Assembly (NCBI GenBank): GCA_018817915.1
Contig: JAHISX010000040.1
Location: forward strand, 1 to 52,135
Direction of reading: 5' to 3'
DNA length: 52,135 bases
DNA from: Bacillota bacterium
GTDB lineage: Bacteria; Bacillota_I; Bacilli_A; Acholeplasmatales; Acholeplasmataceae
In this document: positions 1,304 to 19,479 of the stretch, in pieces
Numbering within the stretch: the stretch's first letter is position 1
How the letters are laid out: the number at the start of each line of letters is the position of its first letter
Notes under the pieces: generated by a model
Told to the model about the DNA's origin: nothing
What the model saw: only the letters and a program-made list of their open reading frames with translations
Databases searched by the model: none
Made by a program: the position numbers and the translations under genes

Positions 1304-2524
1304 TTAATTCTCCTTTTTAAGATGTTCTAAATACATCAGTGGGATTGCTGCATACATTGCACATGCTTCAATTAAATCCTTTTTCCAAGTCTTTTCATTT
1401 GGTGCATGAGCTTCCTCTTCATGTCCAGGACCAAAACCGATACAAGGGATTCCGTGTCTTCCCATGATAGAAACACCATTGGTTGAGAAGGTCCATTTGT
1501 CTACGATAGGGTCTTTTCCAAATAATTTTTGATAAGCTTCTACTGTTGACTCACAAACAACATGATCTTCTTCTAACACCCAAGTTGGGAAATAAGAGTC
1601 GGTTGGATACACAAGTCCGGTATAAGCTGGTCTTTCATAAGTATACATTTCAACGATTGCTCCTGCAGCTTTTACTGAAGGTAACTCTCTAATTTCTTCT
1701 AAAGCAGATAGATAAGTTTCACCATGTGTAAGTCTTCTATCAATCGAAATCGCGCAACCATCAGCTACAGCACATCTTGAAGGAGAACTGAAATATACTT
1801 GACTGACTGTCATTGTGCCTTTACCTAAGAATGGATCATCTTTAAGTCTATTATTTAATTCTTTGATTTCCAATAGGATTGGTGCCATCTTAAAGATTGC
1901 ATTATCTCCACGTTCAGGTGCAGACCCGTGGCAACTAATGCCATGTGTAGAAACCTTAATTTCCATGCGTCCACGATGACCACGATAAATTCTGCATGAT
2001 GTAGGTTCTGTAATCACGACAAATTCAGGTGTTACTTTATCTTCTTCAATAATATATTGCCAGCATAAACCATCACAATCTTCTTCTTGAACAGTTGCTG
2101 TAATTAAGAGTGTATAATCATCTTCTAATTTTAAATCTTTTATGATTTTACCTGCATAAACCATAGAAGCCATACCACCTTCTTGGTCAGAGGTTCCTCT
2201 GCCACCGATGGTTTCTGCGTCTTCATAACCTTCATAAGGATCAAATGTCCAGTTCTTGATTTCACCAATACCTACGGTATCGATGTGGCCGTCCATCGCA
2301 ATTAAATGCTTGCCATGTCCAATTTTACCAAATAGATTGCCCATTGGATCAATGGAAACTGAATCAAATCCAACTTTGATCATTTCTTCTTTAATACGAA
2401 GAATGACATCTTTTTCTTCACAAGATTCACTAGGTATTCTCACCATGTCTCTTAAAAACTTGGTCATATCCTTTTCATAAGCTTGTGCTTTTTTTAAAAT
2501 TTGTGCAAATGGAATGTTACTCAT
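1304..2524 (-). CDS. ygeY: YgeY-family M20 metallohydrolase
   Basis: A 406-residue protein of the M20/ArgE/DapE zinc hydrolase fold. The metal motif GHIDTV is at 79-84, RGTSDQEGG at 109-117, QEED at 146-149 and EPT at 173-175, with a C-terminal His in the GHEEEAHAP stretch. Length and motifs fit the YgeY subfamily that accompanies ygeW and ssnA. The expected reaction is hydrolysis of an amide or ureido bond in an acyclic intermediate; the exact substrate cannot be read from sequence. Its start overlaps the stop of the upstream PLP-enzyme gene by ATGA, so the two are translationally coupled. Confidence 0.87.
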
Positions 2525-3885
2525 AATGCCTTACCTCTTTTCTGTGTAATCAGTTGATCATAATGATGGATAAGTTCATATTCATCATTCCAAAACTTCA
2601 TATCTCTCATCTTATTTAAATAATCGATTGAATAATTAAATTTTAACCAATCATGTTCCTTTTGTTTAAATAGTCTTTCTTTTTTCTCCATACTTCTTAA
2701 GTCATCAACATTTTCTGTATCTACTTTTAAGAAGATATCTTTAAACCAACGTCTTAAAACAAAATCTTCCGTTTCAAGTACTCGATTATCTAGATTTTCA
2801 ATGACACTTTGATAGCGATCAAAACCATCGGTTGCGATTGTTACAACATTATCATTAACACCTAGCTTTAAATATTTAGCCATCTTGATTGCACCAAGAA
2901 TATTGCATATGGTTGATACACCAAAAATATCTCTTAAACTTTCAGCTACTTCAGGATCTACACCATATTCAACTAAAATATGAGGTGCATCGTGGATGAT
3001 TTTTAGTCCTCTGACTGAATCTTCATCTTCAATTAAAGCTACGAAATCTGTTGTTAAGACATTATGAATCAATGTACACATCTTATCACCAATACCTTCA
3101 ATACGATGTTGACCTTTACCACCATTCATTAGTGTTGAACATTCATAAGGTTCTAAAGCAACAACTTTTGCTTCAGGAAAAGCGACTTTAATTTGATCGC
3201 CTGCAGCAAGCGTTCCAGCACTACCAGGGGCAGAAGTGAAACAAGCAATTCTTCCATTACCAATGCCTTTAACTGCTTCAATCGCACTGTTACCTGTAAC
3301 ATGGCGATGGAACCTGTAATTAGGAAGTAATTCAAATTGTGCTAAAGAACGATAATTAGGGTTCTTCTTTAATTCGTAAGTGCGTTGTAAAGTTAGAATA
3401 ACATCTGATTCAGTACCTGGTGTCAAATCTAATTTTGCACCATATTGTTGAATTCTATCATATCTTTCTTTACTCATGTTATCAGGCATAATGACAATAG
3501 CGTCAAATTTCATGAGGTTGCAAATGTAAGATACACCAATACCGAAATTACCAGTTGATGGTCCTAGAATTGTATGTTCTCCTGGAATGATTTCCTTATC
3601 TACACATCCTTCAATGAGTGTGGAATAAGCTGGTCCAACTTTATGTGACCCTGATGGAAAATATCTTCCAAGCATCACAACGATGTTGGCATCAACACCA
3701 GTTAAAGCTTTTGGTAAAACTATTTTGTTGACTTCGTTCTTTTCATTCTTCCATGTGATATTAAATAAATTGACAGGATCCAATTCATCTGTTTTTGCAT
3801 GAAGAGCTTTCTTTCTAATTGCTGGATCTATATGATCTGGATATAGCATTTCATCATAGGTAGGTCCAAATGGTACTTTAGGCAT
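2521..3885 (-). CDS. Fold-type II PLP-dependent enzyme, ygeX-position enzyme 1
   Basis: A 454-residue protein of the cysteine synthase/tryptophan synthase beta fold. The likely PLP lysine is K82 in [11 protein letters not shown], and the cofactor phosphate loop is GPSTGN at 108-113. A further glycine-rich stretch, SAPGSAGT, lies near residue 228. About 100 C-terminal residues extend past the normal fold, rich in charged and aromatic residues. It sits where diaminopropionate ammonia-lyase (ygeX) is found in known clusters but is not obviously that enzyme. A beta-elimination or ammonia-releasing step on a diaminopropionate-like intermediate is inferred from context. Its start overlaps the previous gene by 8 bases, with GGAG upstream. 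Confidence 0.75.
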
Positions 3886-5131
3886 GTCTTTTATCTCCTT
3901 TTTCTTTCATATATCGTTCTAAATCTTCTAGTTTTGGTTTAAGTATCACTGGAGCTTTAACTGCCTTTTGTGCATTTAAAGGATCTTTTAAGCCGTTACC
4001 TGTCATGATGACTGTTACAGATTCATTTGGTTTAATGATGCCAGTTTTGAGAGCTTCTTCTAAGCCTGCTAGAGCAGTGACGCCAGCGGGTTCTCCAAAG
4101 ATGCCTTCTTTACTACCTAACTTTTTCATACTTTTTAAAATGTGTTCATCTGTTACTGCAATCCAAGCACCTTTTGAGTTTAGGACTGCTTGTTGTGCTT
4201 TGATTGGATTTCTTGGAATACCAACTGAAATACTATCAGCAATTGTATTCTCTTCTGCTTCCTTAAGAGGCGATGCTGTCATATCTGCATCAACGAATGG
4301 CGAACAACCAGTACTTTGTACACCTAACAATTGAGGTATTTTATCAATGAGCCCTAATTGAAAGAGGTCATAGAATCCTTTATATACTGAAGCAATGGTA
4401 CAACCATCACCTACGGATACACATACCCAATCGGTTGGCATAAATTTGAGTTGTTCAGCAATTTCTAAAGCAACTGTTTTTTTGCCTTCAACGAGAATCG
4501 GATTAATCGCAGCATTCCTGTTATACCACCCATAGTGATCAATAGCAACCTTTGACAGCTGAAATGTGTCTTTATAGTCTCCATCGACGCTGATAACGTT
4601 TGATCCGTAGATTAATAATTGGTTGAGCTTTCCGATTGGAGCTCTCTTAGGAACGAAGATAACACTCTTTAAGCCCATGTGAGCTGCATGGCAAGCAAGG
4701 CTAGATGCTGCATTGCCTGTTGAACTGCAGGAAACTGTGTGATATCCAAGTTCTAAAGCTTTTAAGACAGCAACTCCACTTGCTCGATCTTTTAGTGAAG
4801 CACTTGGGTTTAATCCTTCATCTTTGACATATAACTCATGAAGACCTAGACTCTTTTCTAATCGATTGGCACGATATAAAGGAGTCCACCCAATTTTGAG
4901 CATTTGACCGATATGCTTTATTTCAATTGGAAGTAGTGGTGCATATCTCCACATCGAATACTCATCTTGATTTTTAAAATAGTTTAAATCAACAAATTTC
5001 TTTAATGCTTGATAGTCATACTCAATATCTAATATCCCTTTTTCACCACAATCCGGGCATGTAAGTAATGGTTTTTGACTATCGTATGTTTGATTACATA
5101 ATGTACACCTGTACTGCTTAACGAAACTCAA
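3878..5131 (-). CDS. Threonine synthase-like PLP enzyme with zinc ribbon, ygeX-position enzyme 2
   Basis: A 417-residue protein. Cys 9, 12, 25 and 28 form an N-terminal zinc ribbon like that of some threonine synthases. The PLP lysine is K114 in SLKDR and the phosphate loop is SSTGNAAS at 136-143. Near the C-terminus are EPAGVTALAG and an MTGNGLKD stretch. The start codon is TTG, overlapping the adenine deaminase stop as TTGA, with AAGGTG five bases upstream; a later ATG would remove the zinc ribbon. Threonine biosynthesis is unlikely here, since no hom or thrB is nearby. A lyase role in purine carbon recovery together with the next gene is inferred. Confidence 0.75.
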   Translation of the reverse strand: MSFVKQYRCTLCNQTYDSQKPLLTCPDCGEKGILDIEYDYQALKKFVDLNYFKNQDEYSMWRYAPLLPIEIKHIGQMLKIGWTPLYRANRLEKSLGLHELYVKDEGLNPSASLKDRASGVAVLKALELGYHTVSCSSTGNAASSLACHAAHMGLKSVIFVPKRAPIGKLNQLLIYGSNVISVDGDYKDTFQLSKVAIDHYGWYNRNAAINPILVEGKKTVALEIAEQLKFMPTDWVCVSVGDGCTIASVYKGFYDLFQLGLIDKIPQLLGVQSTGCSPFVDADMTASPLKEAEENTIADSISVGIPRNPIKAQQAVLNSKGAWIAVTDEHILKSMKKLGSKEGIFGEPAGVTALAGLEEALKTGIIKPNESVTVIMTGNGLKDPLNAQKAVKAPVILKPKLEDLERYMKEKGDKRHA

Positions 5132-6852
5132 TCTAACACCTTCTTGTCTACGTCTATGCTAACAATCTTAAACTGATCGACATCAAATAAACCTCTATCG
5201 GTCAATTTTAATTTAGGAATCACTGGGAGTGCTAGAAATGCAAGTGATATAAATGGATCATCTACTTCCAAATTCAATCCCATTTTTTGAATCTTTTTCT
5301 TCATTTTAAGTAATGTGTCTTGAACAAGTAATTCAGAGTGGGCTGTCATAATACCTGCAACTTCAAGTTCTAAATATTCTGAGACCTTGCCGTCTTGAAC
5401 GAGAACAATACCACCTTGTATTTCTTGAATTTTTTTTGCTGCTACTAACATATCTTCGTCAGATGATCCAACGATGATGAGATTGTGTGAATCATGAGCA
5501 ATAGTCATTGCTAAAGCACCATTCTTAATTCCAAATCCTTCGACAAGCCCAATACCAACATTACCGGTATGATGATGTCTTTCAATAACAGCTAATTTAA
5601 GGATATCGACTTTAGGATTATAAACAAATTCATGATTTTCAACTTGAACTTCTCTAATTAATTCATGAGTTGTTATATTATTATGAATTAAACCAATCAC
5701 TCGTACTCTATGTCCTTTAAGTTTAAGTTTAAAGGATAAATTTTCTTCTACGTGAACTGTATGAATGACTTCTTTAGGAATATTGGTCTTCGCTTCAAAT
5801 AATGCTTCGCCTCTTACAGCAACAATCTTACCCTTAAAATAAACCGTTTCTGGTTCAATATTGTATAAATCATCAAAAATGAAGAGATCAGCATCTTTAC
5901 CCGGAGCAATACCACCTACATTAGGTAGGTTATAACAGGTAGCTGCATTAAGTGTAGCCATCTTTATGGCATCAATTGGATTGATACCTGCTTTAATTGC
6001 TAAATTGACATTAAAGTTGATATGACCTTCTTCTTTGATGTCGAATGGATGCTTATCATCTGTGCAAAAGAGCACACGATGGATATTATCTTTGTTTAAA
6101 CCTTTGAGTAATGCGCGTGTATTTCTTGTTTGTGAGCCTTCTCTTAAATGGACATACATGCCTTTTCTAATGCGTGCCATCATCGATTCAACGATTGAAC
6201 ACTCATGATCTGTCATGACACCTGCCGCAATATAAGCATTTAAGTCATTCCCCATCACATCTGGCGCATGACCATCAATGATCTTTTCTCTCATCAATTC
6301 AATTTTTTCGTGGATTTCATCATCACCATAAATAACCGATGGATAATCCATGACTTCACCTAATCCAAGAACTCTTGGATGATCCATGAATGATTTGATA
6401 TCTTTTGCTGTGACGATAGCTCCACTATTTTCTTCTTTCGTTGCTGGAACACATGAAGGAATCATCATGTAGACATTCAGTGGAATGTCCTTGCTATTGT
6501 CGAGCATGAACTGAATACCTTTTGATCCACAAACATTTGCTATCTCATGAGGGTCAGCAATAATTGTTGTTGTTCCTTTAGGAACTACAATCTTTGCAAA
6601 TCCAGGAGGTGTGAGCATTGATGATTCAATATGAACATGACCATCAATGAATCCAGGCGCAACAAATCTATTGTTGATGTCATGCTCAATTTCGCCTTGA
6701 TAAGAGCCAACACCAACAATTTTTCCATCTTCAATTGCAATATCGCCTAGTTCAATTTCACCACTATAAACATTAATTATTTTTGCATTCTTTAGAACAA
6801 GCTGTGCTTTGATTTCTCCTCGTGCAATTTTCATGATTCGCTTGTAATCCAT
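5128..6852 (-). CDS. ade: Adenine deaminase
   Basis: A 574-residue protein with the typical length and two-part layout of bacterial adenine deaminase (AdeC/Ade). The amidohydrolase metal motif GFIDGHVHIESSM is at about residues 67-79, followed by DPHEIANVCG, CSIVES and CTDDKHP. The C-terminal domain carries the DSHN motif of this family. It converts adenine to hypoxanthine and ammonia and so feeds adenine to the molybdenum hydroxylases of the same operon. It lies 14 bases after the FAD-subunit gene, with GAGGTGG before the ATG. Confidence 0.93.
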   Translation of the reverse strand: MDYKRIMKIARGEIKAQLVLKNAKIINVYSGEIELGDIAIEDGKIVGVGSYQGEIEHDINNRFVAPGFIDGHVHIESSMLTPPGFAKIVVPKGTTTIIADPHEIANVCGSKGIQFMLDNSKDIPLNVYMMIPSCVPATKEENSGAIVTAKDIKSFMDHPRVLGLGEVMDYPSVIYGDDEIHEKIELMREKIIDGHAPDVMGNDLNAYIAAGVMTDHECSIVESMMARIRKGMYVHLREGSQTRNTRALLKGLNKDNIHRVLFCTDDKHPFDIKEEGHINFNVNLAIKAGINPIDAIKMATLNAATCYNLPNVGGIAPGKDADLFIFDDLYNIEPETVYFKGKIVAVRGEALFEAKTNIPKEVIHTVHVEENLSFKLKLKGHRVRVIGLIHNNITTHELIREVQVENHEFVYNPKVDILKLAVIERHHHTGNVGIGLVEGFGIKNGALAMTIAHDSHNLIIVGSSDEDMLVAAKKIQEIQGGIVLVQDGKVSEYLELEVAGIMTAHSELLVQDTLLKMKKKIQKMGLNLEVDDPFISLAFLALPVIPKLKLTDRGLFDVDQFKIVSIDVDKKVLD

Positions 6853-6866
6853 AAGTCACCACCTCA

Positions 6867-7706
6867 TCATATTTTTTGAATAAAGTCTGTAATTAAGTTA
6901 GAAGCCACTTGATTCCGATAATTCTTATTGGATCTTTGATCATCAATTGGTTTAATCAATTCTTGATATCTTGTCAAAATTTGGGGTAATTGATTTTTGA
7001 GTTCTTCAACACTAAGATCTTTGTAGCTCTTTTCAAAAGCTCTGTTTCTAATTACTGTCATATAAACTGCACCTAAAGCAATTCTAAAATCAGTTATGAT
7101 GCCTTCTGAAACGGTGACAGCTCCTGCAAAAGAAACCTTTGAAATGGCATCTGCAAATCTTCCACCTACCTTAACCCAACTTGTTTGAGTGAAATGAGGG
7201 ATAGGAATAATGATTTCTTTGATCAATTCATTGGCTTGAATGACTGTTTTTCTTGGTCCTATAATAACTTTTTCAATGGGTAAATATCTTGTTTGATTGG
7301 TGCTTGCTAAAACAACAATCGCATCCAATAAATACAAAGGTACTAAACTGTCACCCGCTGGTGATGCATTGGCAATGTTACCTGCCAATGTAGCCATATT
7401 TCTAATGCCAGGTGAAGCCATTTCTTTAATCACTTCTTTAAGTAACTCTGGTACATCTTTATGATGCAACAAAGTTTCTAAAGAGGTCATCGAACCAATT
7501 TTAATTTGCGCTTCATCTTTCATAACATATTTGAGTTCTTCAAGATTGATAAGATAAAGCATATTGGAATGAAATAACGGGGGTAAATCTGCTGAATTTC
7601 GCTTTTGAATCATTAAATCTGTTCCACCTGCAATCACGTGATAATCGCCTTGATAAAGATGATTCAATGCATCTTGAAGATTTTTAGGAATGACGTGTTT
7701 TACCAT
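6867..7706 (-). CDS. Molybdenum hydroxylase FAD subunit, set 1
   Basis: A 279-residue FAD-binding subunit of the xanthine dehydrogenase/CO dehydrogenase family. The FAD loops are IAGGTDLM at 25-32 and TLAGNIANASPAGD at 107-120. The C-terminal third matches the CO-dehydrogenase flavoprotein C-terminal domain. It should carry electrons from the 2Fe-2S subunit to an NAD- or ferredoxin-type acceptor. Its start overlaps the stop of the 2Fe-2S gene by 7 bases. Together with the next two genes it forms a complete small-medium-large trimer. Confidence 0.9.
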   Translation of the reverse strand: MVKHVIPKNLQDALNHLYQGDYHVIAGGTDLMIQKRNSADLPPLFHSNMLYLINLEELKYVMKDEAQIKIGSMTSLETLLHHKDVPELLKEVIKEMASPGIRNMATLAGNIANASPAGDSLVPLYLLDAIVVLASTNQTRYLPIEKVIIGPRKTVIQANELIKEIIIPIPHFTQTSWVKVGGRFADAISKVSFAGAVTVSEGIITDFRIALGAVYMTVIRNRAFEKSYKDLSVEELKNQLPQILTRYQELIKPIDDQRSNKNYRNQVASNLITDFIQKI

Positions 7707-8167
7707 AGTCCATCACCCTTCTTTGAAGCTTTTTGAATTGCTTTTACAATCATGTTATAACCAGTACAACGACATAGATTGCCAGATATGCCAATTCTAA
7801 TTTCTTCATCTGTTGGTTTTGGATTTTGAGTAAGTAGACTTTCAGCAGCAATCATCATACCTGGTGTACAAATACCACATTGTGATCCACCTTCTTCAAG
7901 CATTGCATCTGCTAATGCTTGGTAACGTTTCGTTTCCGAAAATCCTTCAATGGTTGTCACTTCCTTATCAGCAACATTTGCTAAGGGAAAACAACAACTA
8001 TGAATGATGCGTCCATCAACTAAAACAGCACAAGCACCACATTCACCTTCACCACAACCTTCTTTAGGTCCAGTTAGGTTAAAATGATTCCTTAAAACAT
8101 CAAGTAACCGACTGCTAGGATCAAGATTAACTTCAACATCTTTTCCATTAAGTTTAAATTTTATCAT
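7700..8167 (-). CDS. Molybdenum hydroxylase 2Fe-2S subunit, set 1
   Basis: A 155-residue iron-sulfur subunit with two 2Fe-2S clusters. The plant-ferredoxin-type cluster uses Cys 38, 43, 46 and 58; the helical cluster uses Cys 97, 100, 132 and 134 in CGIC and CRC motifs. All eight ligands are present. It passes electrons from the Mo centre to the FAD subunit. It overlaps the Mo-subunit gene by 14 bases, with GGAG upstream of its ATG, so translation is coupled. Confidence 0.93.
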   Translation of the reverse strand: MIKFKLNGKDVEVNLDPSSRLLDVLRNHFNLTGPKEGCGEGECGACAVLVDGRIIHSCCFPLANVADKEVTTIEGFSETKRYQALADAMLEEGGSQCGICTPGMMIAAESLLTQNPKPTDEEIRIGISGNLCRCTGYNMIVKAIQKASKKGDGLW

Positions 8168-10253
8168 GATTGATCAACTCCATAATGTATTCTGGTGTTG
8201 CAGGTATTTTATATACTTTTTTATTGATCGCTTGCTCAATTGCTAGAGCAACTGCTGGTGCACCGCCAACCAGTGTGAGTTCACCAACGCCTTTGGCTCC
8301 ATAAGGACCTAAAATATATGGGTTTTCCATGATGACAGTTTCTGTTTTTGCCATATCAACTGCTGTTGGTATGATGTAATCAGTCATTGTTTTCTGTCTC
8401 AATTTACCTTGTTCATGCTTCATAACTTCTAAATAGCCATAGGCTACACCTTGTGCAATACCACCATCCGCTTGACCTAATACAAGGCGATCATCGATCG
8501 ACTTACCAACATCATAAACACTCCATATACCTTTGACCTTGGTTTGATATGTCACTTTAGAGACTTCAACTTCAACAACATTGACACCCCAAGAATATGC
8601 AGGATAAGCATCGCCAACCATCGTATCTTCATCCCACTTGATATATTCTGGTTGTTGATATTGTTCTAATATTTCCATTTCTTGATGATCAATCCATGTT
8701 TCTTTCAGTTTCAATGCAGCTCTTGCTAATAATCCACCAACAATCATCGTTGTTCTAGATGCGACTGTAGGACCCGAATCTAAGACATAGTCTGTATCGG
8801 GATTATCAAATGATACTTGTTGAGAAGGAATACCTAATGTTTGAACAACAATCTTCTTTAAAGCTGTCTTCGCACCTTGGCCCATATCTACAGCAGCAAC
8901 CAATAAGAAAACTTGATCGTTTGCATCTTTTCTAAGTTTAACTTTGGCATTAATATGTGTACTTTCACCGCTTCCGGTAAATCCACATCCATGTAAAAAC
9001 CAACTCATCCCGATGCCTTTAAAGACAGAAGGATCTTGATATATCTTAACTTTTTGCTCATAATCAGAAATTTCCATTGCTTTATCAATCATTTTCTTCA
9101 TAATAATTGGATCTCTAAAAACACCACTAGTTGACGTTAAATCATTTTGTTTTGCAAGGTGCATCAATCTTAAAATGAGAGGATCGATATTGAGTTCTTT
9201 TGCAATATGATGAATAAACATCTCAACTGCAAAAATCATTTGAGGTGCCCCAAAACCTCTAAATGCACCATTGGGTACAGTATTGGTCTCATAAACATCA
9301 CCTGAAATATCTAGGTTATCAATCGTATAGGACGAAGTAGATGCAATCATTGCTCTTGCAAGGACAACACCACTTAAACCAATATATGCACCACTATCTA
9401 AAGCAACATGTGCTTTTAATCCTTGAATACGATATTCTTTATCGATAGCAGCTGTTAATTGAATCTTTGAAGGGTGACGTTTTGTTGTCACCGACATATC
9501 TTCTTCACGTTCATAAATCATCTTAATTGGTCTACCAATCTTATGAACAGCAACAGCAAGTTGACAAGCCATAACTGATGGGAATTCTTCTTTACCACCA
9601 AATGCTCCACCAACTGAAGGTTGGATGACTCTAACTTTATCATCAGCAAACCCCATGGTTTTAAGAACAGCATTCTTAACATAATAAGGGCATTGGATCG
9701 AACCAATCAACGTAATCTTCCCATCCTCTTCGGGATATGCAATAAAGCCTTGTGGTTCGATATATGCTTGTTCCTGGTAACCTGTTTCATAAGTATAAGA
9801 TATCGTCTTAAATGGCTTAGTAAAAGCCTTTTTGATATTTCCTTTTTTGAAGCTCTTATGAATGACACTTGTCTTATATTCAAATTTCGGTTTTAAGACT
9901 TGATACTCTATTTTGATTTGACCAATCAGATCATTAATCGTTTGTTTATTCTTACCTACAACAAGCATGATGGGGTCACCAATGTAATTCACTTGTTTTT
10001 CAGCAAATACTGGCCAATCTTCAAAAATCATATTGACATGATTTTTTCCCGGTATATCGCGATAATCAACGATAAAATAATCCTTGGGTAAATCAGGGAT
10101 TTCAATATTTAGTATTTTAGCTTTAGGATGAATGGATCTCACTGTTTTTGCATATAAGATATGATCCATCTTAATATCACTTACATAGAGTGATTTTCCT
10201 GAAACCTTTTCAATGTGATCTTCTTTTTGTATCGATTGACTGATATCCTTCAC
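8154..10253 (-). CDS. Molybdenum hydroxylase Mo-binding subunit, set 1, xanthine dehydrogenase-like
   Basis: A 699-residue molybdopterin subunit. The Mo-site loop GGAFGGKEE is at 215-223, GAFRGFGAPQ at 329-338, QGAKTAL near 459-465 and the catalytic GVGE near 655-658. The Glu after GGK and the Arg in AFRGFG match the pair that orients purines in bovine xanthine oxidase (E802 and R880, from memory), so a purine substrate is likely. The start is GTG at 10253 with GGAG upstream; no in-frame ATG lies near. No in-frame TGA or other selenocysteine signal is seen. It is about 75 residues shorter than the set 2 Mo subunit. Confidence 0.88.
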   Translation of the reverse strand: MKDISQSIQKEDHIEKVSGKSLYVSDIKMDHILYAKTVRSIHPKAKILNIEIPDLPKDYFIVDYRDIPGKNHVNMIFEDWPVFAEKQVNYIGDPIMLVVGKNKQTINDLIGQIKIEYQVLKPKFEYKTSVIHKSFKKGNIKKAFTKPFKTISYTYETGYQEQAYIEPQGFIAYPEEDGKITLIGSIQCPYYVKNAVLKTMGFADDKVRVIQPSVGGAFGGKEEFPSVMACQLAVAVHKIGRPIKMIYEREEDMSVTTKRHPSKIQLTAAIDKEYRIQGLKAHVALDSGAYIGLSGVVLARAMIASTSSYTIDNLDISGDVYETNTVPNGAFRGFGAPQMIFAVEMFIHHIAKELNIDPLILRLMHLAKQNDLTSTSGVFRDPIIMKKMIDKAMEISDYEQKVKIYQDPSVFKGIGMSWFLHGCGFTGSGESTHINAKVKLRKDANDQVFLLVAAVDMGQGAKTALKKIVVQTLGIPSQQVSFDNPDTDYVLDSGPTVASRTTMIVGGLLARAALKLKETWIDHQEMEILEQYQQPEYIKWDEDTMVGDAYPAYSWGVNVVEVEVSKVTYQTKVKGIWSVYDVGKSIDDRLVLGQADGGIAQGVAYGYLEVMKHEQGKLRQKTMTDYIIPTAVDMAKTETVIMENPYILGPYGAKGVGELTLVGGAPAVALAIEQAINKKVYKIPATPEYIMELINHDKI

Positions 10254-10265
10254 ATCATCACTCCT

Positions 10266-11342
10266 TTATGCCATTGTTATTGCATCCGTTGGACACTTAG
10301 TCACACATAGGCCACATTCAAAACATTTATTTGGATCGAATGAAATCTTATCTTCCATAGTTATTGCGAAATATGGGCAAACATGAACACAGATGTTACA
10401 TTTAATACATTTATCTTCAATAAGTGATGGCACATTTGCTTTATATTTAACATTGTTGGATAGCGATGTGTTTATCACTTCTTCTATACTTGCAAAGCCA
10501 TATGCTTCTAAACGTTTTGGAAGATCACTAATAATCTTCGCATATAATTGTTTTCCTTTAATAAGTGCCCCAGAAAGCATTTGAACCCCAGAAGCACCAG
10601 CGAGTAAGAATTCAATAACATCATCTGCTGATTGAATACCACCAACACCTATGACAGTTAAGGTAGGCTCAGCTTTCTTAATTGCATAAACAGTTGCTAG
10701 TGCAAGATTTTTGATGACTGGACCACTTGTCCATACGAATCCTGATTCATTGCCATAAAGAATTGATCTTGTTTCAATATCAATTTTCATCGTTGGTCCT
10801 AAGGAGTTAATCGCGACAATACCATTTGCTCCATTTTCTTTAATCATTCTAGCAAATTCTGCTGGATTAGGAATATGTGGACTAATTTTCATATAAAAAG
10901 GCTTCTTCGTATGACTTCTAATCATTTTTACTGTTTCAGCAATCACTGATAGATCTGTACCAACATAATGTGTTGATACTTCAAAGGCATCAGCAAAAGG
11001 ATCAAGTAACGGAATTAAGATTTCCATATCGTCCTTAGAATATCCAACGCTGATGATGAGTGGTCTATCTTTTTCTTTCTGATACTCAGGCAAAAATTCT
11101 TCAATCCACTTTTCTATAGAGTGTTCACTCCAAAGCTCACTATTCATCACATACTGTTTATCACCATAGATACATGGTTTTGGTATATGAGGTTCTTTCG
11201 TTGAAATTGTTTTGGTTACAACAGCACCACATCCAGCATTTTTCATAAATAATAGTTTTTCTGTATCACCTACAAGTGGTCCAGAAGCTGGCATCAGTGG
11301 ATTTTCTAAGACTAATCCATCAAACGTTGTTTTTAAATTCAT
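10266..11342 (-). CDS. PreA-like dihydroorotate/dihydropyrimidine dehydrogenase-fold protein with 2x[4Fe-4S]
   Basis: A 358-residue protein. Residues 1-295 form an FMN-binding TIM barrel of the dihydroorotate/dihydropyrimidine dehydrogenase family, with NPLMPASGP at 14-22, KTIST at 44-48, MKISPH at 151-156, NGIVAINS at 173-180 and IGVGGI at 231-236. Two 4Fe-4S motifs follow: Cys 312, 315, 318, 322 and Cys 340, 343, 346, 350. The usual substrate loop (N-x-S-C-P, as in E. coli PreA NFSCP) is replaced by EVSTHYVGTD at 121-130, so the normal catalytic Cys is missing. No PreT-like NADH partner is nearby. It overlaps ssnA by four bases. Inferred: a ferredoxin-linked reductase for a purine ring intermediate, filling the ygfK position. 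Confidence 0.82.
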   Translation of the reverse strand: MNLKTTFDGLVLENPLMPASGPLVGDTEKLLFMKNAGCGAVVTKTISTKEPHIPKPCIYGDKQYVMNSELWSEHSIEKWIEEFLPEYQKEKDRPLIISVGYSKDDMEILIPLLDPFADAFEVSTHYVGTDLSVIAETVKMIRSHTKKPFYMKISPHIPNPAEFARMIKENGANGIVAINSLGPTMKIDIETRSILYGNESGFVWTSGPVIKNLALATVYAIKKAEPTLTVIGVGGIQSADDVIEFLLAGASGVQMLSGALIKGKQLYAKIISDLPKRLEAYGFASIEEVINTSLSNNVKYKANVPSLIEDKCIKCNICVHVCPYFAITMEDKISFDPNKCFECGLCVTKCPTDAITMA

Positions 11343-12646
11343 GACTTCACCTCGTTATTGATTCTTTCCCAAAGCTTTTGAGCATACTGACTTGCTTCTT
11401 GATATTTAGAAATCAGTGGATCACTTACTTCATAATTAGTTACTATTTGTTTCCCAGCAATATAAACATGTTTTGGTTTAAAGCTGTGAAATAATCCGAA
11501 GAATAAGTGGCCTAAAGCATTGTCTTGATTGATTGGCGTTGGTGGTATATAAGGAACCATTAATAAATCTGCTTCATAACCTTTTTGAATCTTACCTAAA
11601 TGGGTACCTAAAATTTGGTTTGTATATAGATATGTATCTTCAATCATTTTTTTCAATTCGCCTAATCCAAATAGGTTAGGTGTTTGATCAAGTAAGTGAG
11701 TTGCGTAATAAAGACTCAAATATTCAGTTGTGATCGCTGATGAGATACCATCATTTCCTACGATTACTGGAATACCATGTTCTCTAAATCTCTTGAGTGG
11801 GGGTACACCAACACTATTGTTCATATTCGATGAGAAATTGACTGCTATTACACAGTCTTTGTCCTTAATGATCTTCAATTCATCGTCATCGACATAAATG
11901 GCATGAGCGATGATGCTATGTTTATTAAGTAAACCGTGACGGTTTAACCTGTTTAATATGCGCTCTTTATATTTTTCCTGAGAATCTTTTTCGTCCATAA
12001 CACTTTCGGCAACGTGAATATGGATTGGCATATCTCCTAAAGAATTTTTTACTTTCTTTAATGTTTGTTCTGATAAGCTCATCGATGCATGTAAACCAAA
12101 TAATCCTGCTGTGAAGGGTGAACGATAATCCTTATGGAAGGCTACGTTTTCTTCAATCGCTTTTTCAACATCAAAACGATCGCTTGTTTCAAATGCAAAA
12201 ATCCCTCTTAAATGTACATCATCACAAACAGCTTTTTTTAATGCCTCAAGTGTACCTGTGATATCTATGCCACTTGCGTGATGGTCAATCATTGTTGTGA
12301 CTCCGTTTTTAACATGGTCAACAGCACTAACTAATCCACTATAATAGGTTGTTTCTAAATTGATATTTCTATCAAGTTTCCACCATAATTGGTCCAAGAT
12401 GTCCTGAAAGTTTTCAGGATGAAATGGTACAGACATGCCACGGGCAAATGTTGAATAAATGTGGGTGTGCCCTGTTATAAGCCCAGGCAAAACTAAATGA
12501 TTAGCTCCGTCAATAATTTCATAACCTTGATCCTTAAATTGCTTCATTGGGCCAATTTCAATAATCTTTTCATCAAAGATTACAAAGCCTTGTTCAATGT
12601 ATGATTCAAAATCATAAATGCGTGCATGGATGATTGCTTTGATCAT
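11339..12646 (-). CDS. ssnA: SsnA-type amidohydrolase
   Basis: A 435-residue metal-dependent hydrolase of the chlorohydrolase/guanine deaminase type. The metal motif GHTHIYSTFARGM is at 59-71, HVAES near 210, an AHAIYVDDDEL stretch near 245 and VGNDGIS near 300. Length and the HTHIYSTFARGM motif match SsnA, a standard partner of ygeW and ygeY. It probably opens a purine-derived ring. I place the start at 12646, not further upstream, because AAGGAGGCGA stands 6-7 bases before this ATG and the start then overlaps the upstream stop as ATGA. Confidence 0.88.
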   Translation of the reverse strand: MIKAIIHARIYDFESYIEQGFVIFDEKIIEIGPMKQFKDQGYEIIDGANHLVLPGLITGHTHIYSTFARGMSVPFHPENFQDILDQLWWKLDRNINLETTYYSGLVSAVDHVKNGVTTMIDHHASGIDITGTLEALKKAVCDDVHLRGIFAFETSDRFDVEKAIEENVAFHKDYRSPFTAGLFGLHASMSLSEQTLKKVKNSLGDMPIHIHVAESVMDEKDSQEKYKERILNRLNRHGLLNKHSIIAHAIYVDDDELKIIKDKDCVIAVNFSSNMNNSVGVPPLKRFREHGIPVIVGNDGISSAITTEYLSLYYATHLLDQTPNLFGLGELKKMIEDTYLYTNQILGTHLGKIQKGYEADLLMVPYIPPTPINQDNALGHLFFGLFHSFKPKHVYIAGKQIVTNYEVSDPLISKYQEASQYAQKLWERINNEVKS

Positions 12647-13950
12647 TTGAAATCGCCTCCTTTGATCCACTTGCCAAGTCCCTCAATCAATTTGCCATCT
12701 TGTAGAACAAAATTTCCTCTAACCATTGTTGAAATAACCTTGCCAGATGTTGGCAAATTTTCATAAACAGAATAATCGCATGATCCATGATTACCATGAA
12801 CGCTTGTGCTCAAATCAGGTTGGAAAACAACCAAATCAGCATCATAACCTTCTTTGATTTCTCCTTTTGATTGTAAGCCTTGAGTATATGCAACTCTACT
12901 TGTCATTTTAGGAATTGCTTCATCACCTAAGTGATATCTCATGATACCTAGTGCATGTTCAATGCCACCAATACCAAGTGGTGTTTCTTTAAGAGTCTTT
13001 TGCTCTTTATCAGCTCTCATGAAGGCACAATGGTCAGTACCTATCGTATAAACAGCTTCTTGATATGTAAACATCATATCCTTTTCATGTGATGTTCTTA
13101 AAGGAGGTGCGAATGTATAGAGATATCCATCGTCTTGTTTTAAAACATCCGTTGTAAATGTAAAATATTGAGGACAGCTTTCAACAAAGAAATGAGTATT
13201 TATCATATCAGGATAGTTTTGAATTAATTTTTCTAATGTTTCTCCACTACTTAAATGAACCATATACATCCAACCACCCGTTTGTCTTGTAAACTCAGCA
13301 AGCTTCAAAGCCTCACTCATTTCACTAACTGTTGGTCTACTTGTTAATAAATCTCTATATGTAAACTTAGGATTTAAAACGATTAAATCGTCATTTTCAA
13401 TATGTGCCATAAGCAAAAAGTGATATTTTTTAGATAGCTCTAATAATTGAATAATCTCAGGATCATATGTTCTTCTATTAGAATCTGAATAGGTTGTAAA
13501 AAGCTTTAATGTATTCATGCCTAAAGCTTTCATCTTTTTCACAAATGCTTCTAAATCACCTTTAGGATTTTTAATACAAGCATGAAAATGATAATCAATA
13601 ACACTCTTTTTTGCTAATGACATCCGATGATTAAATGCTTTTTCCAAATCTTCAACGCAATCAACTGGTTCCAAAAAATCTACATATGAAGTTATGCCAC
13701 CATAAAGTGCAGCAACACTTCCAGAATAAAAGTCGTCCACTGATTTGATAAATCCTAAATCTAATTCAAAATGAACATGTGGATCGATGATACCAGGTAA
13801 AACTTCTAATCCTTTTAGGTCAATGGTAAGCGTTGCAGGCAAAAGTTCATCGCTGATTGCAGCAATCTTTTCATTTGTAATGTAAAGATTTGTTTCTTTC
13901 CATGTTTGATTAACGAATACTTTGCCATGAATCAATGCTTTATCGTACAT
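12643..13950 (-). CDS. Dihydropyrimidinase/hydantoinase-type cyclic amidohydrolase
   Basis: A 435-residue cyclic amidohydrolase. The metal set is complete: H58 and H60 in DPHVHFE, the likely carboxylated K149 in NTLKLF, H183 in AHIEND, H232 in VHLSS and D306 in GTDHCAF. This matches the D-hydantoinase/dihydropyrimidinase family, the hydA/hyuA member of uric acid clusters. It would hydrolyse a cyclic ureide (five- or six-membered) produced from the purine ring. The ATG is preceded by a GGAGG site. The downstream ssnA gene is coupled by an ATGA overlap, fitting two consecutive ring openings. Confidence 0.87.
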   Translation of the reverse strand: MYDKALIHGKVFVNQTWKETNLYITNEKIAAISDELLPATLTIDLKGLEVLPGIIDPHVHFELDLGFIKSVDDFYSGSVAALYGGITSYVDFLEPVDCVEDLEKAFNHRMSLAKKSVIDYHFHACIKNPKGDLEAFVKKMKALGMNTLKLFTTYSDSNRRTYDPEIIQLLELSKKYHFLLMAHIENDDLIVLNPKFTYRDLLTSRPTVSEMSEALKLAEFTRQTGGWMYMVHLSSGETLEKLIQNYPDMINTHFFVESCPQYFTFTTDVLKQDDGYLYTFAPPLRTSHEKDMMFTYQEAVYTIGTDHCAFMRADKEQKTLKETPLGIGGIEHALGIMRYHLGDEAIPKMTSRVAYTQGLQSKGEIKEGYDADLVVFQPDLSTSVHGNHGSCDYSVYENLPTSGKVISTMVRGNFVLQDGKLIEGLGKWIKGGDFK

Positions 13951-13965
13951 ATAGACCTCCTTGGA

Positions 13966-14439
13966 TTAAACGTTTATAACCTTGACATCCTTTAACTCAT
14001 AATGCTTAATAACTTCATCTAAATGGTCAATTCTTGTTGTGATGACTAAATCTAATTTAGAATCAATCATTTTTCTAAATATTTGATCATAACCGTAACC
14101 TCTTAATTCAAACACACCGATTTCATCCAAATAGATAGGTTCAATCTTTTCTTCAATTATTCTTTCTATTGATTTCTCAACCCAGCTTAGCGTGAAGAGA
14201 TTGATGAAGTATGGTCCTACTTTACCTGCGATTATAAAGCTTTCGGAAAAGTAGTTTTCGTGAAGCAACAATAATTTTTGTTCTTGTGTAGCAAGTCTAA
14301 TCGCAGTAAAGCTATGGACGTTACTTCCATCCATTTTTTTAATAGAAGCAAATCCATCACCTATTTTATGCTCGTGATAAAGTGCCTTTAATTTTGTTGT
14401 TTTACCTTCATTTATTTTCCCAGTAACGATGGTTATCAT
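13966..14439 (-). CDS. THEP1-like P-loop nucleoside triphosphatase
   Basis: A 157-residue P-loop protein. The Walker A motif GKINEGKTT is at 7-15 and the Walker B stretch IYLDEIG at 102-108 is followed by ELRG, the layout of the THEP1 (DUF265) nucleotide kinase/NTPase family. It starts inside the end of xdhC (32-base overlap), so it is tied to molybdenum hydroxylase maturation. E. coli has a different P-loop protein, YqeC, in the comparable place. Its role is unknown; nucleotide-driven cofactor insertion or cofactor precursor phosphorylation are possible. Confidence 0.75.
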   Translation of the reverse strand: MITIVTGKINEGKTTKLKALYHEHKIGDGFASIKKMDGSNVHSFTAIRLATQEQKLLLLHENYFSESFIIAGKVGPYFINLFTLSWVEKSIERIIEEKIEPIYLDEIGVFELRGYGYDQIFRKMIDSKLDLVITTRIDHLDEVIKHYELKDVKVINV

Positions 14440-15289: not shown

Positions 15290-15919
15290 TTACAAATAAA
15301 CAGTAAGGAGTATAGCAAGAACAAATGTTGCTAGAGAAACTGCTAAATTAGGTTTAAATGTAAATTTGACTTTTTGGACGAAAGCCCAACGAACGCCATA
15401 TATAATACCTAATATTAAAGCTTCCATTAAACCTAGATAAACAACAAGTTCTAGCATTGCTGATGTGCTTACAAGTTGTGGGAAAGGAAATCCTGTAAGT
15501 GCATGATTTATTGCTATATTTGCCAAGAAGAGAAAGCGCCATGAAAATCCTACAAGTGCTAGTCCAGCGATTTTAGCTGCTACAGGTTTCTTTTCAATTA
15601 AAGGAATGAATACAACCATCACTAAGGATTGCAACATAATCGCAATCATTGGATTGTATGTTTTAATTGGAGGAAGTCCTGGTAAGAAAAAGTTAATTGC
15701 TTTAATGGTTGCTGCAATAGCAGCAACGTAAATCATTGCTGATTTTGATTTTGTATTTTGATAAGTAATAATCATTAAAGTTGCCGCAATAGGAAACATG
15801 ATACTACCAGATACTAATGGAGGTAAAAATTGTAAAACATATCCTAAAGTTGCTTCTAGTATGCCCCATACAGCGCCAAAGAATAAAACATAAACCCATA
15901 AACTTCTACTTTGCTTCAT
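15290..15919 (-). CDS. Six-helix integral membrane protein of unknown function
   Basis: A 209-residue, very hydrophobic protein with about six membrane segments and short loops. The first helix carries a GAVWGILEATLGY motif. Size and topology resemble S components of ECF transporters, but no signature allows a firm call. Its start overlaps the end of the Mo subunit gene by 14 bases, with GGAGAT upstream. It is the only membrane protein in the 20-kb purine operon, and no NCS2 or other purine permease is present, so a substrate-uptake role is a reasonable guess without direct support. Confidence 0.7.
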   Translation of the reverse strand: MKQSRSLWVYVLFFGAVWGILEATLGYVLQFLPPLVSGSIMFPIAATLMIITYQNTKSKSAMIYVAAIAATIKAINFFLPGLPPIKTYNPMIAIMLQSLVMVVFIPLIEKKPVAAKIAGLALVGFSWRFLFLANIAINHALTGFPFPQLVSTSAMLELVVYLGLMEALILGIIYGVRWAFVQKVKFTFKPNLAVSLATFVLAILLTVYL

Positions 15920-18236
15920 TTGAAATCTCCTTTTGTTTTAATTTTTGAATGCCTTCATATATTTTTTGTGGTGTGATTGGTAAGGTTTTAATTCTTACAC
16001 CTGTTGCATTATAAACTGCATTTGCTAATGCTGCAGGTGGTGTATCAATACCTATTTCACCTACTGATTTCGCCCCAAATGGACCTGATTCTTCATAACT
16101 TTCTGCAAATTCAGTTGTTAATTTATGAATATTTTTTGTTGTTGGTATATGGTAATTCAAGAATCCATTCGATAAAAGGCTTCCTTTGCTGCTATATTGA
16201 ACATCTTCGTATGCTGCCATACCAATACCTTGAACAATACCACCTTCAACTTGGCCTTGAGCTAGTTTAGGATTGATTGGTGTTCCACAATCAACGACAC
16301 TGACATAATCCAAAATATCATATTCGCCAGTTTCTTTATCCAATTCAATTGTGATAAATCCAGCCATAAAAGGTGGTGGTGATTTTGTTCCTACATAACT
16401 ACCTGTTGCAGTCAATTGTTTTTGATCTTCATTGTAGTAAAGTCTATTTGCTAAGTCTCTAAATGAAATTTCTTGATCTTTAGCCTTAAATGTAAATCCA
16501 TCAAACTCAACATATTTGAGTTCAACCTTAAGTGCATTAGCCGCTTCCTCAAGCAACATATTTTTCATGATTTTTGCTGCATTTAAAACTGCATTACCAG
16601 AAACATAGGTTGTGCTTGATGCATATGCTCCAGTATCAAATGGTGTTAAATCAGAATCAGATGAGTAGACGATGACTTTATCAACTGTTGTCATTAATTC
16701 TTCAGCAGCTATTTGAGCCAAAATGGTATCACTACCTTGTCCAATATCGGTTGCTCCAACCATTAAATTATAGAATCCATCATCATTGAGCTTAATTGTT
16801 GCTGCTCCCATATCAATATATGGAATCCCACTACCTTGCATGGCAATCGCCATGCCAACTGCTTTAACTTTACTATCTTTTATCTCTTTTCTTGGATAAA
16901 TATCCTTCCAATGAGATAATTCTAAACCTCTTTTCACACAAAAATCTAATTTGCATGACTCCATATTCATTGCTGTACCTTCGGTACCTTCACCCATAAT
17001 CGCAAAGATTGGTGAGGTTTCACCTTCAAGAATCATGTTTTTTTGTCTAAATAAGATAGGATCCATATCTAATTTTGCACATAGCATATCAACTGCGGAT
17101 TCGATAGCAAAATTACCCTGAATTGCTCCATACCCTCTAAAAGCTCCAGCTGATACATGATTTGTATAAACCACTTGGCCTGCAAAACGCACAGCATCTA
17201 CCTTGTTGTATAGTGGCAAGACTTTAGATCCGGCAACCATGAAAACAGTTAATGCATGTTCTCCATAAGCACCTGTGTCTGATAAGATGTAGCAATCAAT
17301 AGCTTTAAGAGTGCCATCTTTATCTGCACCTAGCTTGACATCAATACGCATTGGATGCCTTGTATATGATGATTCAAAAACTTCGCTTCTTGTATAATTA
17401 ATCTTTGAGGGTTTACCAGTTTTTAATGTGACTAAAGCAGCAAACATTTCACCATGAAGTGCTTGTTTACCTCCAAATCCTCCACCAACTCTTGGTTTGA
17501 TCACTCTAATTCGAGATAGAGGAACATCTAAGGTTTGTGATAAGATACGTCTCACATGAAATGGTGTTTGAGTTGATGTATAAAGCACCAATCTGTTTTG
17601 AAAGTCAATTCTCGCATTGACAGTATGAGGTTCCATCATGGCATGTGCTTGAGCTTGAGTATAAAAGGATTCTTCAATAACAACATCACATGACTTTAAA
17701 ACATCATCAACATTGCCAACATTCATTTCATATGATGCAGCAACATTCTTCTTAGGTAAGAATCCAATCGGAAACATTTCCAAAATGCCTTCTTCCGGAT
17801 GGATCACAGATTGATTTTCATAAGCTTTTTCGAAATCGAGTACAGGTTCTAACACTTCATATTCTACTTTGATTAAGTTTAGTGCTTGAACTGCAATCTT
17901 TTCAGATATCGCAGCAACACAGGCAACTTCATCACCAACATATCTGACATATTCGTCAAGAACAAATTTATCGTGAGGTGATGGTTCAGGATAACCTTGA
18001 CCAGCACGTGTAAATGATCTTTTAGGTACATCTTGATAAGTTAATACAATTTCAACACCATTAAGTTCTTTTGCTTGAGTTGTATCAATCGATTTAATTT
18101 TCGCAAACGCATGAGGACTTCTAAGTATTTTGATAATGAGTGCATTGGGATCTGCTAAATCATCTGAATAAGCAGGGCGTCCCATCATAATCCCTTTACC
18201 ATCTATAGATGGTGTCTTATGTTTGACTATTCTCAT
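15906..18236 (-). CDS. Molybdenum hydroxylase Mo-binding subunit, set 2
   Basis: A 776-residue molybdopterin subunit of the xanthine dehydrogenase family. The Mo-site loop GGGFGGKQ is at 251-258, AFRGYGAIQ at 365-373, DIGQGSDT near 515 and SVGEIG near 727. A Gln stands where set 1 and bovine xanthine oxidase have the purine-orienting Glu, while the Arg (R367) is kept; from memory E. coli XdhA also has Gln there. The two trimers therefore probably act on different purines or ring positions. I use the ATG at 18236, which overlaps the 2Fe-2S stop as ATGA. A longer reading adds 19 unrelated residues that overlap the upstream gene. Confidence 0.9.
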   Translation of the reverse strand: MRIVKHKTPSIDGKGIMMGRPAYSDDLADPNALIIKILRSPHAFAKIKSIDTTQAKELNGVEIVLTYQDVPKRSFTRAGQGYPEPSPHDKFVLDEYVRYVGDEVACVAAISEKIAVQALNLIKVEYEVLEPVLDFEKAYENQSVIHPEEGILEMFPIGFLPKKNVAASYEMNVGNVDDVLKSCDVVIEESFYTQAQAHAMMEPHTVNARIDFQNRLVLYTSTQTPFHVRRILSQTLDVPLSRIRVIKPRVGGGFGGKQALHGEMFAALVTLKTGKPSKINYTRSEVFESSYTRHPMRIDVKLGADKDGTLKAIDCYILSDTGAYGEHALTVFMVAGSKVLPLYNKVDAVRFAGQVVYTNHVSAGAFRGYGAIQGNFAIESAVDMLCAKLDMDPILFRQKNMILEGETSPIFAIMGEGTEGTAMNMESCKLDFCVKRGLELSHWKDIYPRKEIKDSKVKAVGMAIAMQGSGIPYIDMGAATIKLNDDGFYNLMVGATDIGQGSDTILAQIAAEELMTTVDKVIVYSSDSDLTPFDTGAYASSTTYVSGNAVLNAAKIMKNMLLEEAANALKVELKYVEFDGFTFKAKDQEISFRDLANRLYYNEDQKQLTATGSYVGTKSPPPFMAGFITIELDKETGEYDILDYVSVVDCGTPINPKLAQGQVEGGIVQGIGMAAYEDVQYSSKGSLLSNGFLNYHIPTTKNIHKLTTEFAESYEESGPFGAKSVGEIGIDTPPAALANAVYNATGVRIKTLPITPQKIYEGIQKLKQKEISNEAK

Positions 18237-18685
18237 TTGTGGTCCTCCAAATAACGCTTGATGGCTTTCAGTTGTGATTGGTACCCTGAGCATCTACATA
18301 GATTGCCAACAATGTAATTTTTTATATCTTCTTCTGATGGATCTTTGATCTCTTTTTTGAGTGCATGAATAGTTAAGGCTAAACCAGAGTTACAAAATCC
18401 ACATTGGTCTGCGCCTTCATCACCAAAATAATCACTAATATGTTCCACTTCTTTTTGGATGCCTTCAACTGTTGTAACCTCTTGTCCTTCGATTCTAGCT
18501 GTAAGTACTGAACAAGAAAGCACGGGTTTACCATCTAGTAAAACAGTGCAGACACCACAAGTTGATTCATTACAACCATTTTTTACACTCGTGATATGGT
18601 GACTTCTAAGTGTTTCTAGTAAATACTCTTCGGGTGAAACTTCAAACTCTCTATTTCTTCCATTTAAAATAAATGCTACTTTCAT
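18233..18685 (-). CDS. Molybdenum hydroxylase 2Fe-2S subunit, set 2
   Basis: A 150-residue iron-sulfur subunit. Cluster ligands are Cys 38, 43, 46 and 58 for the ferredoxin-type cluster, and Cys 95, 98, 130 and 132 for the helical cluster. All eight are present. It overlaps the FAD-subunit gene upstream and the Mo-subunit gene downstream by four bases each, so the trimer is made with coupled translation. The order FAD, 2Fe-2S, Mo here is the reverse of set 1. Confidence 0.93.
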   Translation of the reverse strand: MKVAFILNGRNREFEVSPEEYLLETLRSHHITSVKNGCNESTCGVCTVLLDGKPVLSCSVLTARIEGQEVTTVEGIQKEVEHISDYFGDEGADQCGFCNSGLALTIHALKKEIKDPSEEDIKNYIVGNLCRCSGYQSQLKAIKRYLEDHK

Positions 18686-19479
18686 TTGAATGTTACCTCC
18701 TTGATGCCACGTTTAACATATGCTTTTGCTAATGCTTTGCGATAATCTTCACTTGCAACTCTATTTGAACCAAACTTAATGGTCTCTAAAACGATGTTTG
18801 CTGTTTGTTCAACGACTTCATCATTGACAACTTTCTGTTTATTTAAGTATGCCATAGCTTCCTCAGCTAAAATAGCACCACTAGGTCTTGACCCAATCGC
18901 AATTTTATAAGCTTGATCATCCTTAAATATAGCAACATTAAGTATTGCAAATTCTAATGGTGATTGAGCAACTTTTTTAAAGAATCCTTGACCTTTAATT
19001 TTTTTGATGACAATATGTGTCAAAATATCATCAACTTTACCCTTTGCATTTAAAAATGCTTCCAAAGTCATTTCTTTAGCTGGATAAAAAACTAAGTGAA
19101 CAGGCAAAGTCAAAAGCGTTGGAATAATATCAGAGAATGCATATCGTCCAACAATGGATCCACCAATAGTTGCTATATTTCTAAAACCTACACCTAGAAC
19201 TTCACTTAGACTTTGACTAACAAATCCATCTCCTAATTTAATGATGCTTTGATCGGTTTCAAGTTGATGTAAAGTAACCATTGCTCCAATTTCAATTAAA
19301 GATTCTGTTTCAATGATTTGATCGAGCTTTAAATCTTTCAAATCGATGAGTGTTTCAATGGTTGGTGAAGATTTCTTCATCCATGCACCACCACCAATGA
19401 CTGAATTCTTTGGATTTGAAGAGAGTAATTGATATGCCTCATCAATTGATCTTGCTTTATGATAGTTCTTAATCTCCAT
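18682..19479 (-). CDS. Molybdenum hydroxylase FAD subunit, set 2
   Basis: A 265-residue FAD subunit of the CO-dehydrogenase/xanthine dehydrogenase medium-chain family. The FAD loops are IGGGAWM at 28-34 and FRNIATIGGSIVGR near 107-120, with the conserved C-terminal domain after residue 160. The first loop is less canonical than in set 1 (GGGAW instead of GGTDL). It overlaps the upstream mocA-like gene by 11 bases. Confidence 0.88.
   Translation of the reverse strand: MEIKNYHKARSIDEAYQLLSSNPKNSVIGGGAWMKKSSPTIETLIDLKDLKLDQIIETESLIEIGAMVTLHQLETDQSIIKLGDGFVSQSLSEVLGVGFRNIATIGGSIVGRYAFSDIIPTLLTLPVHLVFYPAKEMTLEAFLNAKGKVDDILTHIVIKKIKGQGFFKKVAQSPLEFAILNVAIFKDDQAYKIAIGSRPSGAILAEEAMAYLNKQKVVNDEVVEQTANIVLETIKFGSNRVASEDYRKALAKAYVKRGIKEVTFK

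Follow-up and report, generated by a model that had tools for sequence, protein, structure and literature searches.

The window, i.e., the whole stretch of 52,135 nucleotides that was analysed, carries on its minus strand a uacX-type gene at positions 10266-11342. The gene starts with ATG at 11342 and encodes a protein of 358 residues, which combines an FMN-type TIM barrel (DHO_dh) with two 4Fe-4S motifs and has no FAD domain. In Pfam, the DHO_dh domain (PF01180) covered residues 3-278 and scored 128.7 bits, the cut-off being 27, and a 4Fe-4S dicluster was found C-terminal to the barrel. The eight cluster cysteines, C312/315/318/322 and C340/343/346/350, are encoded at 10293-10409 (codons of residues 312-350, minus strand), and were invariant in 54 aligned orthologues as well as in 51 of 51 sequences of a wider set. 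The AlphaFold2 model had a mean pLDDT of 85.8, with weak regions at residues 180-183 and 197-208. Over its full length, it matched pig DPD at 531-1005, the half that carries FMN and the ferredoxin part, with a Z of 32.1, and over the barrel it matched DHODB with a Z of about 30. Neither a homologue of E. coli PreT nor one of the FAD half of YgfK was encoded within the window. These results were in agreement with the sequence-only reading, which had described an intact barrel with both cluster motifs, no PreT-type NADH subunit and a four-base overlap with ssnA; the overlap is the ATGA at 11339-11342. In NCBIfam, the best matches were the PyrD and PreA models, all far below cut-off, with 167.1 of 270 bits and 134.5 of 335 bits, respectively. 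At 358 residues, the protein also lacks the length (about 1000 residues) and the FAD/NAD(P)H domains of YgfK (TIGR03315), and its PF01180 barrel with 4Fe-4S clusters and no FAD domain is the composition that defines UacX.

The neighbouring genes are all on the minus strand. Upstream lie the overlapping ssnA-like aminohydrolase gene (11339-12670) and a hyuA-like dihydropyrimidinase/hydantoinase gene (12643-13950, NCBIfam). The protein in the SsnA position had the SsnA models as its best NCBIfam matches, below cut-off (363.8 vs 444 bits), and was 29% identical to E. coli SsnA and 35% to Clostridioides SsnA. Downstream, an XDH homologue is encoded in three subunits: the molybdopterin subunit in the XdhD position, a candidate urate reductase (8154-10253), the 2Fe-2S subunit (7700-8167) and the FAD subunit in the YgfM position (6867-7706). 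The molybdopterin subunit was 27.6% identical to Clostridioides XdhD, and 24-28% across E. coli and Clostridioides XdhD. These are followed by an adenine deaminase gene (5128-6852; TIGR01178, 635.9 bits against a cut-off of 472.5), two genes for PLP proteins, one CysK-like and one ThrC-like, in place of YgeX (2521-3885 and 3878-5131), a ygeY hydrolase gene (1304-2524; TIGR03526, 704.9 bits against 321.5), and a carbamoyltransferase gene in the YgeW position (318-1301). The last product was closer to ornithine carbamoyltransferase (258.9 of 280.85 bits, the best model) than to the YgeW models (202.5 and 187.1 bits against cut-offs of 453 and 500), and below every cut-off. Farther upstream, a second three-subunit XDH homologue (molybdopterin, 2Fe-2S and FAD; 15906-19479) was present, whose molybdopterin subunit had 36% identity each with XdhD and XdhA of E. 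coli.

The operon was compared with orthologous loci from a scan of genome contigs, of which the best 80 were used; no C. difficile record was among them, and the top-matching records came from Acholeplasmataceae, Izemoplasma, and uncultured Bacillales or Erysipelotrichia. At all 80 loci, ssnA stood immediately upstream of uacX on the same strand, while xdhD was found in 76 and hyuA in 74. Moreover, ygeY and the gene for the YgeW-like carbamoyltransferase were present in each of the 50 loci whose sequence extends far enough downstream. The arrangement is strikingly constant in Acholeplasmataceae, Izemoplasma and related uncultured Bacilli, and the window gene shares with ssnA a cluster for the reductive breakdown of uric acid, as is characteristic of UacX. 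A YgeX homologue was found neither in the window operon nor in any of these 50 operons, all of which had the CysK-like and ThrC-like PLP proteins at its place; YgeX was present in 6 of the 7 Clostridial UacX clusters that were fetched. The PLP pair is possibly an undescribed replacement of diaminopropionate lyase, and no description of such a replacement of YgeX in this lineage was found in the literature. Because the proteins in the SsnA and YgeW positions score below the cut-offs and YgeX is replaced, the details of the pathway in the window lineage may differ.

The loop of residues 121-130, EVSTHYVGTD (codons at 10953-10982, minus strand), was analysed in an alignment of 51 homologues of the UacX clade with 19 PyrD and 9 PreA sequences. 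The motif N-x-[SC]-C-P was found in 19/19 PyrD and 9/9 PreA, but in none of the 51 UacX-clade homologues, all of which had E-[VIL]-S-[TCSA]-H-Y at that site. E121, S123, H125 and Y126 were invariant among these 51 homologues from many genera, and the motif is therefore not a product of chance. Furthermore, the span from E121 to K152 was 31-34 residues in the UacX clade compared with 41-42 in PyrD and 43 in PreA. As the motif is absent and the span is about nine residues shorter, the Cys loop has been deleted and not merely rewritten. The earlier claim that EVSTHYVGTD replaces the N-x-S-C-P substrate loop was thus upheld, with the refinement that about nine residues, including the catalytic cysteine, are gone. 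No description of this apparent family-wide loss, seen here in aligned sequences, was found in the literature. Purine-ring reductases and pyrimidine enzymes carry one common family label, and E-x-S-T-H-Y with a loop about nine residues shorter, as against N-x-S-C-P, offers a sequence test that would tell them apart.

Other residues around the barrel were retained. K44, N67 (50/51), K152 and N179 were kept in the UacX clade, and S180 was found in place of Thr; the counterparts of these residues in DHOD and DPD contact FMN and one side of the pyrimidine ring. In addition, E69, W71, E73, H125, Y126, G182, P183 and W204 were invariant in the 51 homologues. E69 occurs in PreA too, while the other seven differ in PyrD and also in PreA, with rare exceptions at E73. 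Accordingly, the window protein resembles E. coli PreA and pig DPD in domain order, fold and the conserved K44, N67, K152 and N179, but in those enzymes the longer loop with N-x-S-C-P is retained, and electrons are supplied by PreT or by an FAD half.

A tree of the UacX clade, PyrD and PreA was computed with the loop columns excluded. The 51 members of the UacX clade, including the window protein and Clostridioides UacX, fell on one side of a branch with support of 98/94. PyrD formed a branch at 100/100 and PreA the weaker one at 96/67, with which sequence L264 grouped, a long-branch row of uncertain kind. The window protein clustered with those of other Acholeplasmataceae and Bacilli in a separate sub-branch within UacX, and a placement inside ordinary PreA or PyrD, which the sequence-only reading had regarded as decisive against its proposal, did not occur.

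The Clostridial branch of the clade included eight related genomes of the Clostridioides group. The genus was assigned from cluster layout and from HadB, which in one of these genomes equalled PDB 3o3m, the HadB of C. difficile, in 359 of 361 residues. A protein of this group, L133, stood in for the C. difficile UacX Q181U4, so that the 39.7% identity of the window protein to Clostridioides-group UacX and their common clade refer to L133 and not to Q181U4 itself. The Clostridioides-group cluster encodes YgeV, YgeX, YgeY, UacY (PF07969), SsnA, XanQ, UacX, HyuA and a one-piece XdhD. It agrees with the UacX cluster of C. difficile as given in PMC12507026, which comprises UacY, HyuA, SsnA, YgeX, YgeY and a one-piece XdhD. 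Judged through these genomes, the window protein is like C. difficile UacX in its DHO_dh barrel and 4Fe-4S clusters without an FAD domain, its clustering with ssnA, hyuA, xdhD and ygeY, and its short E-x-S-T-H-Y loop. By contrast, in the window operon a ygeW-like gene takes the place of uacY, the XDH homologue consists of three subunits, one of them for FAD, where the Clostridioides group has the one-piece XdhD, and YgeX is replaced by two PLP proteins. Clostridioides-group genomes also encode a second protein with DHO_dh and ferredoxin domains (L142:9168-10253; also L136 and L161-L163), which was 38-39% identical to UacX. In this protein, the loop (IELVSYDYRD) is shorter still and Asp replaces N179, and its gene adjoins two ssnA-like genes and XdhABC.

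The protein could instead be taken for a dihydropyrimidine dehydrogenase of the ordinary PydAc/PreA type, dependent on ferredoxin, acting on uracil or thymine and standing in a purine operon by chance. In favour of this, the domain order is PreA-like, and the HyuA neighbour is similar to dihydropyrimidinase. Moreover, PydAc of Clostridium chromiireducens has a barrel and a ferredoxin domain, works without an FAD subunit and is fed by ferredoxin (PMC7332683). However, the window protein lies outside PreA in the loop-free tree, the Cys loop is missing throughout the UacX family, and the ssnA neighbour in a purine operon recurs at all of the best 80 loci. PydAc itself acts on uracil and has two bacterial Fdx domains (16 Cys) compared with one dicluster and eight cluster cysteines in the window protein; it is set apart here by its description, as it was absent from the tree. 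This explanation is therefore highly improbable, and ordinary PreA was ruled out by the loop-free tree together with the loop (N-x-S-C-P in 0/51 vs 9/9 PreA).

The label that databases would give, the dihydroorotate dehydrogenase of the organism, was weighed as well. The PyrD model was the best NCBIfam match, and besides the window protein no DHO_dh protein above cut-off was found in the genome, which is 95% complete. On the other hand, the score of 167.1 bits is far below the PyrD cut-off, the catalytic loop is gone, and no PyrF was found in the same 95% complete genome. A near relative (G189) likewise had no PyrF, and its only DHO_dh was also UacX-type, while a genus-mate (G006) with a true PyrD does have PyrF. 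Since neither a second DHO_dh nor PyrF was found there, the window protein very probably has no part in making pyrimidines. Given also the missing loop (0/51 vs 19/19 PyrD) and the tree position, dihydroorotate dehydrogenase was ruled out, its probability being close to nil.

The comparison with the barrel half of YgfK, which had been proposed as a check, gave a positive result. The UacX profile aligned at the start of this half, locally over 103 columns with an E of 4e-8 (95%) and globally with 98%, whereas the PyrD and PreA profiles did not align (5% and 2%); these E-values refer to one pair of profiles. No significant match was obtained when the UacX and YgfK profiles were restricted to the loop and the later barrel. 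Signatures common to UacX and YgfK were a G-P-A-[AS]-G-P-like motif, K-T, K-P-C-I and N-x-E. In a by-eye comparison, YgfK had S-T-[ML]-H-G-C ahead of the conserved Lys, the long loop being absent and the Cys kept. UacX is thus like E. coli YgfK (Q46811) in its place beside ssnA, its N-terminal barrel signatures and, by eye, its short loop. It differs in that YgfK is a distant sequence of 1032 residues that includes FAD/NAD(P)H domains and has retained the Cys (S-T-M-H-G-C). In 392 Clostridia genomes, 10 had UacX, 13 had YgfK above cut-off and one had both, the UacX-like frame there being partial (256 aa). This near-disjoint distribution was rejected as a sign of mutual exclusion, since chance alone would give no more than about 0.3 genomes with both. 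Proteins of 535-615 residues (L193-L197) matched the N-terminal half of YgfK only and had no FAD half; they are perhaps donor-switched YgfK variants.

UacX was named in 2025, and PMC12507026 describes it as a reductase of yanthine (2,8-dioxopurine) that is coupled to SsnA and assigns it, in anaerobic bacteria, the YgfK step with ferredoxin as the likely donor. According to the same paper, XdhD reduces urate to yanthine, which YgfK with SsnA and NAD(P)H converts to ureidomethyl-hydantoin and some 5-ureido-dihydrouracil; without SsnA, no product was seen from yanthine. A UacX assay is given in the methods of that paper, and in its main text no UacX result was found. The related PydAc, also without an FAD domain, receives electrons from reduced ferredoxin (PMC7332683). 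The window protein is a further member of the UacX family, a type already named in that 2025 paper. We consider it very probably a UacX-type yanthine reductase with a low-potential donor, probably ferredoxin, coupled to SsnA; yanthine as substrate and ferredoxin as donor are candidates. The sequence-only proposal of a purine-ring reductase doing the job of YgfK is supported by the operon context, the kinship with Clostridioides UacX and the 2025 literature (PMC12507026). The docking candidates named there were urate and xanthine, while that literature points to yanthine, formed from urate by XdhD.

It is improbable, though less so than a pyrimidine substrate, that the same kind of enzyme acts in the window sub-branch on another purine-derived ring, e.g., urate or xanthine. 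The SsnA-position protein is below cut-off, and the XdhD-position protein shows only 24-28% identity to known XdhD. In addition, with the sub-branch being separate, the substrate could have shifted, and Clostridioides genomes have a second paralogue, changed more strongly and placed in a different Xdh cluster, so that substrates may drift. However, N67, E69, W71, E73, S123, H125, Y126, K152, N179, S180 and W204 are near-always common with Clostridial UacX, and the flanking pathway steps are encoded in the operon.

As a UacX-type yanthine reductase, the enzyme would be fed by a low-potential carrier, with reduced ferredoxin as the probable one, and the electrons would reach the FMN in the TIM barrel by way of the two 4Fe-4S clusters. 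The XDH homologue of the operon would supply yanthine by reducing urate, and the reduced FMN would pass a hydride to C6 of the 2,8-dioxopurine. SsnA, from the overlapping gene, would then hydrolyse the reduced ring and pull the unfavourable reduction forward; the overlap of the two genes fits such a coupled pair. To arrive at the carbon skeleton of the products, C6 would have to receive a hydride and C5 a proton, and the shorter loop may make room for the two-ring substrate. The Cys acid might be dispensable if C6=N1 is reduced and tautomerisation follows, with no acid needed at C5; alternatively, H125 or Y126 might act as the replacement acid. With the Cys gone from the UacX family, the proton donor, if any, becomes the mechanistic question. 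We put forward only tentatively, and with some doubt, the joint proposal that the whole family dropped the Cys loop and reduces the purine ring without that acid, by C=N hydride transfer and tautomerisation or with H125/Y126, and that the Acholeplasmataceae/Izemoplasma pathway ends with the CysK-like and ThrC-like PLP proteins instead of YgeX. The branch of reductive uric acid degradation described from C. difficile, which lacks the FAD part and is probably fed by ferredoxin, appears to reach into Acholeplasmataceae, Izemoplasma and their uncultured relatives among the Bacilli.

Two further proteins are encoded on the minus strand upstream of hyuA. A small NTPase-like protein (13966-14439) with a weak PRK13695 match recurred in 57 of the best 80 orthologous loci, and a membrane-type protein (15290-15919) with no NCBIfam match recurred in 44.
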